A stretch of DNA of 64,000 bases from Streptomyces natalensis ATCC 27448. Its GTDB lineage: Bacteria; Actinomycetota; Actinomycetes; Streptomycetales; Streptomycetaceae. Below are positions 22,299-28,036 of this stretch, in pieces. The stretch's first letter is position 1; each line of letters starts with the position of its first letter. The notes beneath the pieces were generated by a model. The model searched no databases, was not told where the DNA came from, and was given only the letters and a program-made list of their open reading frames with translations. The DNA lies in assembly GCF_000935125.1 (NCBI RefSeq), contig NZ_JRKI01000061.1, positions 310,001 through 374,000 of the forward strand, given 5' to 3'. A program made the translations under genes and the position numbers.

Positions 22299-23726
22299 AT
22301 GCGCCGTTCCAAAATCGTCTGCACCCTGGGCCCCGCCGTCGACTCCTTCGAGCAGCTGAAGACGCTGATCGAGGCCGGTATGAATGTGGCCCGTTTCAAT
22401 ATGAGCCACGGGACCCACTCGGAGCACGAGGAGCGGTACCACCGCCTCCGCAAGGCTCAGGAGGAGACCGGCCGCGCCATCGGCGTGCTGGCCGACCTCC
22501 AGGGCCCCAAGATCCGTCTGGAGACCTTCGCCGAGGGCCCGGTGGAGCTGGTACGCGGTGACGAGTTCGTCATCACCACCGAGGACGTGCCCGGCGACAA
22601 GACCATCTGCGGCACGACCTACAAAGGCCTGCCCGGCGATGTCTCCAAGGGCGACCCGGTCCTGATCAACGACGGCAACGTCGCCCTCCAGGTCGTCGAG
22701 GTCGACGGCCCGCGGGTGCGCACCATCGTCATCGAGGGCGGGGTCATCTCCGACCACAAGGGCATCAACCTGCCGGGCGCCGCGGTGAACGTCCCCGCGC
22801 TGTCCGAGAAGGACATCGAGGACCTCAAGTTCGCGCTGCGCATGGGCTGCGACATGGTCGCGCTGTCCTTCGTCCGCGATGCGAAGGACGTCCAGGACGT
22901 GCACCGCGTCATGGACGAGGTCGGCCGCCGCGTCCCGGTCATCGCCAAGGTGGAGAAGCCGCAGGCGGTGGCCAACATGCAGGACGTCGTGATGGCCTTC
23001 GACGCGGTCATGGTGGCGCGTGGTGACCTGGCGGTGGAGTATCCGCTGGAGAAGGTCCCGATGGTGCAGAAGCGCCTGGTGGAGATGTGCCGGCGCAATG
23101 CCAAGCCGGTGATCGTGGCGACCCAGATGATGGAGTCGATGATCACCAACTCCCGGCCGACCCGCGCCGAGGCGTCCGACGTCGCCAACGCCATCCTCGA
23201 CGGCGCGGACGCGGTCATGCTCTCCGCGGAGTCGTCGGTGGGCCAGTACCCGATCGAGACCGTCAAGACGATGTCGAAGATCGTCGAGGCGGCCGAGGAG
23301 GAGCTGCTGTCCAAGGGCCTCCAGCCGCTGGTGCCGGGCAAGAAGCCGCGTACCCAGGGCGGCGCGGTGGCCCGTGCGGCCTGCGAGATGGCCGACTTCC
23401 TCAACGGCAAGGCGCTGGTGGCCTTCACCCAGTCCGGCGACACCGCCCGCCGGCTGTCCCGCTACCGGGCCGCGCAGCCGATCCTGGCCTTCACCACGGA
23501 GGTCGCCACCCGTAACCAGCTGGCGCTCAGCTGGGGCGTGGACCCCTTCGTCGTGCCGTACGTGGACAACACCGACGCGATGGTCGACCTGGTGGACGCC
23601 GAGCTGCTCAAGCTCCAGCGCTACAGCGAGGGCGACACCATGCTGATCACCGCCGGTTCGCCCCCCGGCGTTCCCGGCACCACCAACATGGTGCGGGTGC
23701 ACCACCTGGGCGGCGGCCGCGCCTGA
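22299..23726 (+). CDS. pyk: pyruvate kinase
   Basis: Pyk makes pyruvate and ATP from phosphoenolpyruvate and ADP. The 475-residue protein opens with MRRSKIVCTLGPAVDS and has VARFNMSHG (potassium and PEP binding), the catalytic-site KVEKPQAV, MVARGDLAVEYP (magnesium) and the ATQMMESM segment. The C-terminal allosteric domain is complete. The start ATG 22299 has only a weak GGATCC ahead of it. The 61-base gap after ackA is richer in A and T than its surroundings and may hold a promoter. A strong hairpin follows the stop. Confidence 0.96.
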   Translation: MRRSKIVCTLGPAVDSFEQLKTLIEAGMNVARFNMSHGTHSEHEERYHRLRKAQEETGRAIGVLADLQGPKIRLETFAEGPVELVRGDEFVITTEDVPGDKTICGTTYKGLPGDVSKGDPVLINDGNVALQVVEVDGPRVRTIVIEGGVISDHKGINLPGAAVNVPALSEKDIEDLKFALRMGCDMVALSFVRDAKDVQDVHRVMDEVGRRVPVIAKVEKPQAVANMQDVVMAFDAVMVARGDLAVEYPLEKVPMVQKRLVEMCRRNAKPVIVATQMMESMITNSRPTRAEASDVANAILDGADAVMLSAESSVGQYPIETVKTMSKIVEAAEEELLSKGLQPLVPGKKPRTQGGAVARAACEMADFLNGKALVAFTQSGDTARRLSRYRAAQPILAFTTEVATRNQLALSWGVDPFVVPYVDNTDAMVDLVDAELLKLQRYSEGDTMLITAGSPPGVPGTTNMVRVHHLGGGRA

Positions 23727-23825: not shown

Positions 23826-25136
23826 TCACGAGTCCTTGATGGACACGTTCATACCGGGGACGTGGAGATTGCCGCCGAACTGGCCCGCCTGGTCGAGCTT
23901 CACCTTGGTGAAATAGGCGTACGAGACATTGAGCGGCGGCGGGTGCTCCGGATCGAAGACGATCGGGATCAGCCCGAACAGATTGCCCTGGAGCCGCTCG
24001 GTGTACATCGTCACCTTGCCGCCGCGGATCGTGGAGGTGGACCCGGGCGTCGACTGGACGTGGTACTTCTTGCCGGTCGCCTTGTCGTCCACGATCTGGT
24101 GCAGGTCGCCGATGTCGATGCTGTCGGCGGTGAACTTCAGCACCTGCTTGGTGTGGCCGTTCTGCGTGGTGACGTTGACGACACCCTCGTAGTTCAGACC
24201 GCGCAGGGTGAGCCCGCTGGACTCCAGGTGCCAGGGCTCGTCGGGCAGGGTGACGGGCGTCTGCTCGTCCTTGCCCTTCTGCTTGTTCTCGACGACGCAG
24301 GGGTAGGACTGCTTGCCGCTGGCGTCCTTGCCGTCGAGCCCGCCGCCGGGCAGGGCGTTGTCCGCCGTGCCGACGGCACCGTGGACGGTGTCGTTGGCCG
24401 CCTTCGACGGGTCCTGGACGGCTCTGGTGGCGCCGTCCTTGAGGCCGTTGACCGTCTCCGAGAGCTGGTTGGTCCCGGATCCGGAGTCCTTGGACGAGGA
24501 CGAGGTGTCCGCGGACGAGGTGTCCTTGGACGCGGACGGCGAAGGGCTCGGCGAGGCCGTCTTGGCCGCCGACGGGCTCGGCGACGACGACGGCTGACTG
24601 CTGGAGGAGTCGTCGGACGACTTCCCGCCGAAGAGACCGCCGAGCGCATCGCCGATGCCGCCGAGCAGACCGCCGTCGTCCTTCGTGTCCGAGGAGGCCG
24701 ACGGCGACGGGGTCGCGGAGCCGGAGGGCTCATCGGTCTTCTGGGACGCGGACGGCGCGGGTGCGGGCGTGCTGCCCGCGTCCTTGCCGGCCGAGGGCGA
24801 CGGCGAGGGCTTGGCGGACGGCTTCGCGGACGGCTGGGTGGCGTCCTTCTTCGGCTGGTCCTTCGTGTCCTGCTTGGCCTTGGTGTCCCCGCCCGCCTTG
24901 TCCGGGGCGGTGACGCACGGGCCGTCCTTGAACGGGCTCTTGGGCGCAGTCTTGGCAATCGCCATCTGGGGCGTGAGCCCCATGCCCATGAGCACGGCGG
25001 ACGGCATGGCGGCGATGGCGATTGCCTTGCCCGCGGGCATGTGGAGCCGAGTCAGCAGCGGCTTCCTCGGCGCAGCGTGCCGCGGCCCGGTTCTCTGCCC
25101 GGCGGCTGCGTTCTCGTGCAGCTCATCACCCGGCAC
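23826..25136 (-). CDS. secreted low-complexity protein of the DUF6230-DUF6114 operon
   Basis: The product has 436 residues. Its basic N-terminus is followed by a hydrophobic segment (AIAIAAMPSAVLMGMGLTPQMAIA, about 41-60), a probable signal peptide. Residues of about 80-270 are a disordered region rich in Ser, Pro, Lys, Asp and Ala. The C-terminal 170 residues (PCVVENKQKG...VSYAYFTKVKLDQAGQFGGNLHVPG) look like a folded beta-rich domain with two Cys in the protein overall (GPCV and YPCV). GTG 25136 has GGGAGG upstream and overlaps the DUF6114 stop by 11 bases. Homologues are, as I recall, sometimes named hydrogenase expression protein HypF; nothing here resembles a HypF carbamoyltransferase. 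Probably an envelope or spore-wall protein; function unknown. Confidence 0.8.
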   Translation of the reverse strand: MPGDELHENAAAGQRTGPRHAAPRKPLLTRLHMPAGKAIAIAAMPSAVLMGMGLTPQMAIAKTAPKSPFKDGPCVTAPDKAGGDTKAKQDTKDQPKKDATQPSAKPSAKPSPSPSAGKDAGSTPAPAPSASQKTDEPSGSATPSPSASSDTKDDGGLLGGIGDALGGLFGGKSSDDSSSSQPSSSPSPSAAKTASPSPSPSASKDTSSADTSSSSKDSGSGTNQLSETVNGLKDGATRAVQDPSKAANDTVHGAVGTADNALPGGGLDGKDASGKQSYPCVVENKQKGKDEQTPVTLPDEPWHLESSGLTLRGLNYEGVVNVTTQNGHTKQVLKFTADSIDIGDLHQIVDDKATGKKYHVQSTPGSTSTIRGGKVTMYTERLQGNLFGLIPIVFDPEHPPPLNVSYAYFTKVKLDQAGQFGGNLHVPGMNVSIKDS

Positions 25137-25695
25137 GGTGCCTCCCGTTCAATCCGTCGTTCGGGCTCGTTCCTGACAGGTCGCCCAGTCCGAAGCCCAA
25201 CCCGGACCCGCCACCGGTAGCCGGCGCGGGATTGGTGGCGACCACCGGCCCGGCGATCACCTTGCGGTCCTGCTCGCCGTCATCACCCTCCGCAAGCGGC
25301 TTGCCCGGCGCCCAGGCGACCGCCAGCGCACCGCCGATCAGCCCCAGGAGCAGACCGACCACGAAGCCGCCGAAGTTCGAGACGACGAAGGAGACGAGGG
25401 AGAGCAGGATCGCCGCCACACCCGCGAACACCCGCGAAACGGGCTGGAACCACATGGTCAGACCGAGCACGACGAGCAGTACGCCGATGATCAGCGAGCC
25501 GGCGCCGGCGGTGGTGGCCATGCTGAGGGTCATCCCGCCGAGCGAGAGGTGCGCGTAGGGGAAGTACATGATCGGGACGCCGGCGAGCAGCGTCAGCATG
25601 CCGCCCCAGAACGGGCGGCGGCCGCGCCACTCCCCGAACGAACGGCGCTTCTGGCCGATGGACTCGATCAGCCGGGGTCGCGTGTCGGCGCTCAT
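25126..25695 (-). CDS. DUF6114 family membrane protein
   Basis: The 189-residue protein has a cytoplasmic start, then four to five hydrophobic helices (MLTLLAGVPIMYFPYAHLSL, AGSLIIGVLLVVLGLTMWF, VFAGVAAILLSLVSFVVSNFGGFVVGLLLGLIGGALAVAW) and a charged Gly-rich tail. It matches what I know of DUF6114, an actinomycete membrane family found beside DUF6230. ATG 25695 has GAGGAG 9 bases upstream. It is the middle gene of a three-gene operon. Function is unknown; it may anchor or export the two secreted partners. Confidence 0.8.
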   Translation of the reverse strand: MSADTRPRLIESIGQKRRSFGEWRGRRPFWGGMLTLLAGVPIMYFPYAHLSLGGMTLSMATTAGAGSLIIGVLLVVLGLTMWFQPVSRVFAGVAAILLSLVSFVVSNFGGFVVGLLLGLIGGALAVAWAPGKPLAEGDDGEQDRKVIAGPVVATNPAPATGGGSGLGFGLGDLSGTSPNDGLNGRHRAG

Positions 25696-25827
25696 GATGT
25701 ACAGCTCCTCGGGACTGGCAAATCGGTGGTACTGAGCTGGAGTGCCGCTCTGCGCACGGGGCATACGGGCACGGGGCACGGCGAAATACCGCCGCACAGC
25801 TCGCCCCGCGCCCGCACGCTCAGTGCG

Positions 25828-26445
25828 TCAGTAGCACTCGTTCTTGCCCTGGCTGACGCTCATCTTGAGGCCGCTGAGCTTGAACGTGCCGGCCGTGGTG
25901 GCCCAGGCGCGCTGCTTGACGTGGGTCAGCGTGGCCGAGTCGGCTTCCTGGGCGAACGAGCCGGGGTCGGCCTTGTCGCCCTTGTGCATGCCCGGGCCCT
26001 TGGACGTCGAGCCCGCAGCAACACCGATGTTGATGTTGTTGAAGGTCGCGTCCGCGCTGAGCTGATCCAGGTCGATGTAGAGGTTCTTGGCCTCCACCGG
26101 CGTGCTGCCGCCACCGGCCTGGAGCTTCATCGAGACATCGCCGAAGACCGGAACCGGCACCACGACGGACTGGCACAGGTTGTGGATCTTGGCGTTCGAG
26201 AACCCCGAGACCGCAACCGGGACGTTCTTGCCGCCCTTCTGCGTGTCAACGGCTCCGTACTGAACGAACCCGGTGCCGTCCAGGCGGTCGGTAGCGACCT
26301 TGAACTGCTGGCCGGAAACGCTGAACGACGCCGCGAGCGCACCCTGCGAGAGGGCGACACCTATCGCGGCCGTCGCGGCAACGCTCGGCACCATGACGAC
26401 GGCGAACCGCTTCCATCTGGTCCCGCCACGAGCCAGGGACTCCAT
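25828..26445 (-). CDS. DUF6230 family secreted protein
   Basis: The 205-residue protein has a classic signal peptide (RWKRFAVVMVPSVAATAAIGVALSQGALA, cleavage near residue 34), then a beta-rich mature domain with one Cys pair (LCQS and the C-terminal NECY). ATG 26445 is preceded by an excellent AAGGAGGA. I recall this family (DUF6230) being loosely annotated as cholesterol esterase in Streptomyces, but I see no GxSxG lipase motif, so I do not accept that function. It heads the operon DUF6230-DUF6114-low-complexity secreted protein, 132 bases upstream of the DUF6114 start. Confidence 0.82.
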   Translation of the reverse strand: MESLARGGTRWKRFAVVMVPSVAATAAIGVALSQGALAASFSVSGQQFKVATDRLDGTGFVQYGAVDTQKGGKNVPVAVSGFSNAKIHNLCQSVVVPVPVFGDVSMKLQAGGGSTPVEAKNLYIDLDQLSADATFNNINIGVAAGSTSKGPGMHKGDKADPGSFAQEADSATLTHVKQRAWATTAGTFKLSGLKMSVSQGKNECY

Positions 26446-27070
26446 GACTTTCCTCCTTCTCGGACGTACATCTCCGGTACCCGCCCTCTCAGTTGAGAGC
26501 AGCCGCACCTGGGATGGGAGAAGTGCTACGTCCTCGGGAAGGAGAGCGCCTGTCCTCGGAGGCGCTTCGCGTTCCGATTACCGGCGATCACCCCCGAGCG
26601 ACAACCACTGGCCACGCTCACGCGCAACCGCACTGGACAGGCCCTGCCGGGTGGGGCAGAGACCCCCCTGTCCACGGCCGGCGCTCACCGTCGCCGACCA
26701 CTCGGTGGGGACCCAAGTACCCCGCGGCGCCAACCGGATGCCGGGCTGCGGGAAGGGACCGAGCGTGGCCGATCGTCGTGCATTCGGAGCCGCCGCACAA
26801 GGGGCTCGTTACTTGCGGGTAACGGACCGATAAACTAGCCGCGACCCGCTGATACCGAACGGCCACACACCGTCGTACTGACCGTGACGGGACATCGGGC
26901 ATTTGCGGGCACATCACCGCGAAGCCGGTGGCCTGGCTTACTCCAAGTAACAGCGCCTACGATTACCAAGATTTGGTAAAGCGTAGGCGCCATTCCGTTT
27001 GCCGAGACACCTCGTGGGAGGTGTGTGGAGGTCGTACGGGGCGGAATAACCCGTAGCCCTCGAAGAGGTG
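26446..27070. other. 625-base gene-free region upstream of the DUF6230 operon
   Basis: No convincing gene is present. The right part (26940-27000) is notably A+T-rich for this genome and holds a nested palindrome at 26953-26990. The left part should contain the DUF6230 promoter. The region is also the 3' flank of the thioredoxin gene. Confidence 0.55.
26953..26990. promoter_or_regulatory. nested A+T-rich palindrome downstream of the thioredoxin gene
   Basis: An outer 9-bp stem (26953-26961 GCGCCTACG with 26982-26990) encloses an inner 7-bp stem TTACCAA/TTGGTAA (26963-26969 with 26973-26979) around a 3-base loop. It could end the thioredoxin transcript, but there is no T tract in that direction, and TTACCAA-GAT-TTGGTAA is also operator-like. 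Confidence 0.45.
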
Positions 27071-28036
27071 TCAGAACAGTACGCGGGCCAGTGCCGTACG
27101 CGCCGCGGTGACCCTCGGGTCCTCCGCGCCGATCACCTCGAAAAGCTCCAGCAGCCGCACCCGCGCGGCCTCCCGGTCCTCGCCCGCGGTCCGCCGGACC
27201 GTGTCGACCAGCCGCCCGAAGGCGTCCTCGACATGCCCGCCGACCAGGTCGAGATCGGCGGCGCGGATCTGCGCCGCCACATCGGCCGGGGCGTCGGCGG
27301 CTTCCTTGCGCACCGCCTGCGGGTCCAGGTCCTGCACCCGGCGCAGCAGCTCGGCCTGTGCCAGACCCAGCTTCGCCTCCGGGTTGGCCGGGTCGTCGGA
27401 CAGGACGTTCTTGTACGCCTGGATCGCGCCGCCCAGATCACCGGCGTCCAGCGCCGTACCCGCCGCCTCCAGCAGCGCGTCGTAGGGGCCGGCCGGCTTG
27501 GGCTGCTCGGCCGGCTGCTCGTCCGCGGCCGAGGCGTCCACCGGGGCGCCCACGATGCCGAACTGCTGCTCGGCGGCCTGGACCAGCTGGTCGAGCACCT
27601 GGCGGATCTGCGCCTCCGGGGCCGCGCCCTGGAACAGCGGGATGGGCTGGCCGGCGACCACCGCGAAGACGGCCGGGATGCCCTGCACCCCGAACTGCTG
27701 GAAGAGCATCTGGTTGGCGTCGACGTCGATCTTGGCCAGCACGAACTTGCCGGCGTACTCGGTGGCGAGGCGCTCCAGCAGCGGACCCAGCTGCTTGCAC
27801 GGCTCGCACCACTCGGCCCAGAAGTCGATGACGACCGGAACCTCGGTGGAGCGCTGGAGGACGTCCTGCTGGAACCCCGCCTCGTCGACGTCGAACACCA
27901 GCTGGGCCCCGCCCGCGGGCGCGCCCGTGCGGGCCGCCTCGGCGCGTGCCTGTTCGGCCTTCTGCTTCGCTTCCCCGGCCGACTTCACCGCTGCGAGGTC
28001 GACGACTCCACTCATGGACATGTTGCGTGGCTGCAT
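27071..28036 (-). CDS. YbbN/CnoX-like thioredoxin with C-terminal TPR region
   Basis: The 321-residue protein has an Ala/Lys-rich start, a thioredoxin fold (about 45-155) with active site WAEWCEPCKQLG and cis-Pro in GVQGIPAVF, a linker, and helical tetratricopeptide repeats to the C-terminus (YDALLEAAGTALDAGDLGGAIQAY). This plan matches YbbN/CnoX chaperone-redoxins, which hold oxidation-prone clients. Unlike E. coli CnoX, both active-site Cys are kept, so oxidoreductase activity is likely. ATG 28036 has GGGAGGA upstream. It is divergent from a TetR gene across a 362-base gap. Confidence 0.9.
   Translation of the reverse strand: MQPRNMSMSGVVDLAAVKSAGEAKQKAEQARAEAARTGAPAGGAQLVFDVDEAGFQQDVLQRSTEVPVVIDFWAEWCEPCKQLGPLLERLATEYAGKFVLAKIDVDANQMLFQQFGVQGIPAVFAVVAGQPIPLFQGAAPEAQIRQVLDQLVQAAEQQFGIVGAPVDASAADEQPAEQPKPAGPYDALLEAAGTALDAGDLGGAIQAYKNVLSDDPANPEAKLGLAQAELLRRVQDLDPQAVRKEAADAPADVAAQIRAADLDLVGGHVEDAFGRLVDTVRRTAGEDREAARVRLLELFEVIGAEDPRVTAARTALARVLF

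Follow-up and report, generated by a model that had tools for sequence, protein, structure and literature searches.

Results

An operon whose first and third genes encode related beta domains

The window analyzed here, a stretch of 64,000 nucleotides from Streptomyces natalensis ATCC 27448, harbors on its minus strand a three-gene operon that encodes a DUF6230 protein, a DUF6114 membrane protein and a third protein, termed C3. Computational comparison indicates that the first and the third gene encode relatives sharing one beta fold, and a che1 RNA with a conserved leader block precedes the operon. We tentatively read the operon as an envelope module for lipids or isoprenoids. The DUF6230 gene (25828-26445, 205 aa) starts with ATG at 26445 behind an AAGGAGG sequence, the DUF6114 gene (25126-25695, 189 aa) starts with ATG at 25695, and the C3 gene (23826-25136, 436 aa) starts with GTG at 25136, 11 nt inside the DUF6114 gene. 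C3 relatives were collected in one scan of a species genome set from the best 80 candidate stretches, which gives a lower bound for the number of loci. At least 57 loci with C3 relatives were obtained, 56 of them named Streptomyces and one Streptosporangium; C3 lies behind a DUF6114 gene in 56 loci, and L068 is a partial match at another locus. The 11-nt overlap recurs in 54 of 56 relatives (it amounts to 14 nt in L039 and is absent from L066). As conservation over the C3-bearing loci is far above chance, the operon is real, and the overlapping three-gene arrangement proposed in a preliminary description of this DNA is confirmed.

The relation between C3 and DUF6230 was analyzed with hhalign, using profiles of 76 C3 and 103 DUF6230 sequences, distant copies included. 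The two domains aligned over 140 columns with Prob 93.5 and E 2.3e-7, whereas a reversed profile gave E 0.11 and 100 column shuffles gave E 0.014 at best, which identifies the first and third genes as encoding relatives. With sequences from the locus next to pyruvate kinase (the pyk locus) alone the comparison was weak (Prob 26, E 7e-4), and it was the addition of distant copies that made the link clear. The predicted models of both domains end in a like pattern of a long strand, a short strand and a last strand. C3 matches no Pfam family at E ≤ 1 and its best NCBIfam match is at chance level (E 0.57); since the profile-profile comparison is its only link to PF19741, C3 is a relative and not a member of DUF6230.

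Features of the three proteins

The DUF6230 protein matches PF19741 over the entire profile (1-145 of 145; E 7e-63, 211.6 bits, gathering cut-off 27.5). It consists of a conserved N-terminal hydrophobic helix ending in ALA-A, followed by a beta domain with two invariant cysteines. An AlphaFold2 model is nearly all beta, with a predicted local distance difference test score (pLDDT) of 76.4, falling below 50 over the N-terminal 35 residues, and a predicted template modeling score (pTM) of 0.75. In an alignment of 45 of the 55 prepared rows, kept after near-duplicates were dropped, R1, R4, S31, S35, C82, D116 and C195 are the invariant residues among charged residues, Ser, Asn, His and Cys, and mean column identity is 0.93 in the helix compared with 0.70 in the ectodomain. 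A sequence search of DUF6230 against chains of the Protein Data Bank (PDB) gave no match, and neither did the same search with C3.

C3 begins with a GPRHAAPRKP motif and a hydrophobic segment containing AxA (residues 17-62; 24951-25088, minus strand). Mean column identity, determined on 51 of 57 rows after removal of near-duplicates and of L068 (partial, at another locus), is 0.94 in the motif, 0.83 in the hydrophobic segment and 0.71 in the C-domain. AxA was found by the pattern used in 55 of 57 proteins, and by eye in L035 and L055. Conservation of the hydrophobic helices of both C3 and DUF6230 thus exceeds what a disposable signal peptide would seem to need. A low-complexity linker of 205 residues follows (24300-24914, minus strand), which is rich in Ser, Ala, Gly, Pro, Asp and Lys and flanked by Cys74 and Cys280. 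A cysteine before and a cysteine after the linker are present in 56 of 56 relatives, and 55 of these contain exactly these two (L066 has one more near the N-terminus). The stretch between them varies from 178 to 300 residues, with 86-95% belonging to the set of disorder-promoting residues used. The two flanking cysteines may form a disulphide. The C-terminal beta domain (residues 280-436; 23829-24299, minus strand), homologous to the DUF6230 ectodomain by hhalign, is predicted as nearly all beta with pLDDT 91.1 and pTM 0.83.

The DUF6114 protein matches PF19609 in full (1-106 of 106; E 1e-35, 122.9 bits, gathering cut-off 27.9). It is polytopic by hydropathy with a glycine-rich last helix, and in the window copy the first helix falls under the threshold used. 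In a control search Bacillus subtilis showed a DUF6114 match at E ≤ 0.001 but under the family cut-off, possibly a distant relative. Taken together, these features support the architecture described before, namely a signal-peptide protein, a multi-helix membrane protein and a secreted protein with a disordered linker and a folded C-domain; the linker had been given as 190 residues and measures 205.

Distribution and forms of the module

In a sample of 246 genomes of the class, DUF6230 exceeded the cut-off in 50 genomes and DUF6114 in 49. The genome of the window itself contains six DUF6230 and five DUF6114 matches at five places. From DUF6230 matches 55 loci were fetched, an uneven sample in which paralogues are included, and DUF6230 and DUF6114 lie side by side in 54 of them, L077 being the exception. 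C3 was matched at E < 1e-3 in 25 of these 54 module loci; in 20 it is fused in frame to DUF6114, and in five it is encoded by a separate frame. Four of five fused proteins checked have an extra hydrophobic segment after DUF6114. Among the loci below the threshold for C3, at least L111 (contig C34) displays a C3-like end by eye. As C3 is fused at some loci, separate at others and unmatched at the rest, the Streptomyces pyk locus, with its three genes, shows one of several forms of a DUF6230-DUF6114(-C3) module. In L071, L073 and L074, from three families, tandem DUF6230/DUF6114 repeats stand beside a divergent signal peptidase I gene, and L107 (3885-4399) apparently contains a decayed module, with matches to no more than fragments of DUF6230 and DUF6114.

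A che1 RNA and a conserved leader block precede the DUF6230 gene

Upstream of the DUF6230 gene a che1 RNA (Rfam RF02935) was detected at 26582-26674 on the minus strand, covering positions 1-91 of the 91 of the model with 98.1 bits (gathering score 54.1). Its 3' tail (26608-26582, minus strand) is conserved, with a core identical in 55 of 55 leaders. The leader continues with a conserved block, CTCTCCTTCCCGAGGACGTAGCACTTCTCCCATCCC (26511-26546, minus strand), which is a predicted anti-Shine-Dalgarno element with an alternative pairing to the che1 tail; CCGAGGACGTAGC of this block is present in 54 of 55 leaders and CTCCTTCCCGAG in 42 of 55. The ribosome-binding site of DUF6230 with its conserved 5' extension, TACGTCCGAGAAGGAGGAAAG (26448-26468, minus strand), is paired with the block in the predicted fold of the window leader, and TGTACGTCCGAGAAGGAGG of this region recurs in 54 of 55 leaders. 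Just ahead of the block, at 26547-26565 of the window, lies a block-like sequence, CCTCCGAGGACAGGC, for which the predicted fold shows pairing with the che1 tail.

The duplex between the block and the Shine-Dalgarno (SD) region was calculated at -30.4 kcal/mol, a value that 2 of 1000 shuffles attained, whichever side was shuffled. Over its 20 pairs, 1078 of 1099 ungapped cells are standard and 21 are not; six pairs show one-sided changes that preserve pairing, and two-sided changes are absent. For folding counts 54 of the 55 leaders were used (the motif was not found in L064, which was dropped). Shuffling the upstream part made the SD more accessible in 49 of these 54. Pairing of the block with the SD and pairing with the che1 tail were mutually exclusive (r = -0.86), with 22 leaders in each state and ten between, an exclusion also expected from mere competition for one block. 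The duplex of the che1 tail and the block is marginal, as 66 and 47 of 1000 shuffles attain it, though a two-sided compensatory change, from A-U to C-G, is seen at one of its 21 pairs in seven leaders.

Within the class sample, che1 was found in 22 of 22 genomes of the same genus (21 over the gathering score) and in 0 of 224 others, under strict filters by which weak matches may be lost. By comparison of coordinates, each of the 22 genomes has a che1 match that precedes a DUF6230 match by 240-315 nt; G182 has a second, weak che1 match that is not upstream of a DUF6230 match. In published work, che1 is listed among the 5'-UTR (5' untranslated region) elements of S. lividans checked by RNA-seq, in front of SLIV_11405 with the term 'cholesterol metabolism' (PMC8079986), and PMC11678152 describes its function as unknown and mentions possible small-protein coding in the che1-bearing region of S. 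clavuligerus. Further upstream, a PYLIS_1 match at 26995-27081 (23.3 bits, gathering score 70) was taken as chance.

Genes adjoining the operon and its sister modules

The operon is flanked by a pyruvate kinase gene, named from sequence (22299-23726, plus strand), and by a thioredoxin-TPR gene (28105-27071, minus strand), whose product is 46% identical to that of an L069 gene matching PF00085 and TPR_20. For the sister modules 23 locus groups were chosen, and 43 of 45 adjoining genes were scanned (L089:3-2606 and L115:5750-8899 were left out). The genes were picked by a codon-composition rule, which may have let in some false frames. In 6 of the 23 groups, the module has an enzyme gene for lipids or isoprenoids beside it. 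The neighbors in the other 17 include genes for sugar, metal and redox functions and various regulators, and no sporulation family was recognised among the scanned neighbors.

In ten loci of one family the divergent neighbor is a cholesterol-oxidase-like GMC gene, an eleventh being cut by the contig start; at 566 bits against a cut-off of 850 its product counts as a relative. An acyl-CoA ligase gene follows about 1 kb behind the module in three loci, and a lipid-kinase-type gene lies beside it in L108. Genes of the MPAB_Lcp (rubber-oxygenase) type adjoin modules in L111, L106 and L104; L106 (1926-3762) and L111 (1891-3808) contain two of them in tandem, divergent from the module. A protein combining SQS_PSY (squalene/phytoene synthase) and cis-prenyltransferase is encoded beside the module in L109 and L104. 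In the genome of the window, three of six MPAB_Lcp matches and one of three SQS_PSY matches adjoin modules.

A terpenoid-type group of paralogues comprises seven strong DUF6230 matches in 246 genomes of the same genus, all seven with DUF6114. In six of them the gene for the SQS_PSY and cis-prenyltransferase protein follows directly behind DUF6230-DUF6114 (the L154 copy is cut by the contig end); at the seventh locus, in G246, no such gene was found in the next 8 kb. The set of DUF6230, DUF6114 and prenyl enzyme, present in 6 of 246 same-genus genomes, is an apparent uncharacterised terpenoid operon. The group is represented by L109 (2626-5583; contig C29 of the window's genome, near 166 kb) and L154-L158. 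A P450 gene lies upstream in the window's genome, and the DUF6230 match of L156 is split over two frames.

Regulators were also encountered near modules: TetR-type in L080, L093, L097, L107 and L110 (the one in L107 is closest to FasR, with 54 bits against a cut-off of 330), MerR in L070, PadR in L115, AraC-type in L087 and PucR-type in L099. A NIT/HAMP sensor-type protein is encoded a few kb from the module in six Streptomyces loci (L103, L113, L117, L118, L120 and L123).

Esterase and HypF annotations and the response to Tween

The DUF6230 protein of the window is the probable counterpart of genes labelled 'cholesterol esterase'. According to PMC7494193, SCO5420, which bears this label, was almost 37-fold up on Tween 40, whereas pyk2 (SCO5423) was down. 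Sven_0933 and SACTE_4612 are likewise called cholesterol esterase in the literature. The label of cholesterol esterase or carboxylester hydrolase was rejected: no hydrolase family of Pfam or NCBIfam was matched, no His is invariant across the 45 DUF6230 rows, and a GxSxG motif occurs in 3 of the 45 and is absent from the window protein. Given this lack of a hydrolase domain and of a conserved catalytic set, we take the Tween induction to be the reaction of a non-enzymatic envelope module to lipid or surfactant.

HypF contains acylphosphatase, zinc-finger and YrdC-type domains. None of these was matched in Pfam or NCBIfam by the three proteins at E ≤ 1, and the HypF label was rejected as well. 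Both labels had been doubted in the preliminary description, rightly so in view of these results. In the portions of the literature covered by our search, no functional study of the DUF6230/DUF6114 module or of che1 was found, and one paper lists a DUF6230 gene, there only as the source of a moderate promoter. The literature search also returned nothing that joins cholesterol esterase with a riboswitch.

Discussion

A tentative model of an envelope module

We consider it possible, if still doubtful, that the operon encodes an RNA-controlled envelope module in which two homologous exported beta domains and a small polytopic protein act outside the membrane on lipids or isoprenoids. This role is favored as it best joins the neighboring genes, the Tween induction and the architecture. 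DUF6230 and C3 have a beta fold in common, each headed by a conserved hydrophobic helix, and DUF6114, to which C3 is fused in most C3-positive loci fetched outside the pyk locus, would supply the membrane part. On the outer face of the cytoplasmic membrane, the two beta domains may act jointly to bind or hand over a hydrophobic ligand, whether fatty, isoprenoid or sterol-like, and the Cys-flanked linker would give C3 access to the wall. In the Streptomyces pyk-locus copy, che1 and the block would form a controlling RNA leader in which the block pairs with the DUF6230 ribosome-binding site in one predicted state, possibly switching in response to a signal. At the speculative end, and improbable as it stands, che1 could be the sensor half of translational riboswitches of a new class, in which a signal related to lipids or isoprenoids frees the ribosome-binding site of a lipid-carrier module; the module would then be a Gram-positive device moving hydrophobic compounds between membrane and wall that terpenoid clusters reused for the products they make.

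Several observations weigh against this model. The lipid and isoprenoid neighbors are confined to 6 of 23 groups and were counted after being noticed, and the operon's own neighbors, pyruvate kinase and thioredoxin-TPR, are not lipid genes. C3 was not detected at E < 1e-3 in 29 of 54 module loci. To judge by the AxA cleavage motifs, C3 and DUF6230 may be released and not tethered, and as these motifs follow strongly conserved helices, tethering and cleavage are both possible. Foldseek returned no PDB match at E ≤ 1e-3 for either model, hence no match to a ligand-binding fold, and the best VIA Z scores of the two models were 2.0 and 4.0 among Foldseek's top 1000. Lipocalins appeared among the weak Foldseek rows of C3, from E 0.045 onward; LptA/LptC, lipocalin and TULIP folds did not stand out in Foldseek or VIA and are not thereby excluded, and the lack of a convincing solved-fold match is no proof of a new fold. 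SCO5420 was equated with the DUF6230 gene by gene order, three genes from pyk2 (SCO5423), and not by a sequence match, and in PMC7494193 the Tween effect is one on mRNA level that its authors read as esterase. In the leader, the predicted fold leaves the SD unpaired with the block in 22 of 54 cases, and because the pairs are nearly invariant, covariation is no proof of pairing between block and SD.

Alternative explanations

For the leader, it is somewhat unlikely that no switch exists and that che1 is a separate small RNA, with the block conserved for a promoter or for protein binding. Rfam files che1 as an sRNA gene, the pairing of its tail with the block is marginal compared with shuffles, and the possible small-protein coding in S. 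clavuligerus (PMC11678152) would fit this explanation too. The rarity of the SD-block duplex among shuffles, its nearly complete standard pairing and the six one-sided changes that keep pairing argue against this explanation, as does the listing of che1 among RNA-seq-checked 5'-UTR elements in PMC8079986.

For the proteins, a structural role in the envelope or at the spore surface appears rather unlikely. The beta domains would then polymerise or decorate the wall, which the linker spans, and bind no small ligand. The homology of the two exported domains, the long linker rich in Ser and Pro, the high conservation and the signal peptidase I gene divergent to tandem arrays in three families would suit such an assembly, and the sporulation-linked SsgA family, compared by eye in the class sample, occurs in 45 of 50 genomes with the module and in 106 of 196 that lack it. 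Against it, the scanned neighbors at paralogous loci are mostly metabolic or regulatory; for the spore in particular, five module genomes lack SsgA and 20 genomes of the SsgA-rich family f18 have no DUF6230 match. Of the cell-surface or spore-coat role suggested earlier, a location at the cell surface is likely, but a role in the spore coat is not supported; spore-coat assembly is possible and not favored. Quite unlikely, in our estimate, is a role in the response to envelope stress or surfactants, with the beta domains, as sensors or chaperones, detecting membrane-active compounds and acting through DUF6114; Tween would then be a detergent and not food. Two extracytoplasmic domains tied to a polytopic protein, the RNA leader, the surfactant nature of Tween, the regulators adjoining several modules and the NIT/HAMP sensor protein in six loci are in line with it; the module itself, however, has no signalling domain, and the regulators vary by locus, with action on the module demonstrated for none of them. 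That DUF6230 is a secreted lipid esterase splitting Tween or sterol esters, as annotated and as proposed in PMC7494193, we regard as very improbable. The Tween induction of SCO5420 and the cholesterol-oxidase-like neighbor in one family agree with this activity, whereas the missing hydrolase match, invariant His and window GxSxG, together with a nearly all-beta model, disagree.

Significance and comparison with known systems

A module with a che1-led copy in each of 22 same-genus genomes of the class sample, and with five copies in the genome of the window, has gone under an enzyme label that is very likely wrong, and a published account of how S. coelicolor uses fatty acids is built on it. 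The homology of C3 and DUF6230, the DUF6114-C3 fusion, the Cys-flanked linker, the che1 leader and the paralogues with their neighbors are new here. One RNA family and two protein families, all of them orphans, are thereby brought together with an unclassified third protein in a single testable system.

Compared with 'cholesterol esterase' SCO5420, the DUF6230 gene is the same gene by position, and SCO5420 is Tween-induced (PMC7494193), but a hydrolase domain and a conserved catalytic set are absent. In Pfam, PF19741 and PF19609 are listed as families of unknown function; the window proteins match both profiles in full and the families travel together, whereas C3 stands outside Pfam though it is a distant relative of DUF6230. 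Like riboswitches and attenuators that sequester the ribosome-binding site, the operon has a long conserved leader, a predicted anti-SD block and a possible upstream competitor; the states are predicted folds here, and the competing one is marginal against chance. With che1 RF02935 the leader shares a full-length match over the gathering score within an operon leader, but the Rfam model stops at the tail, which it draws unpaired, and the leader of the window adds the conserved downstream block with its complementarity to the ribosome-binding site.

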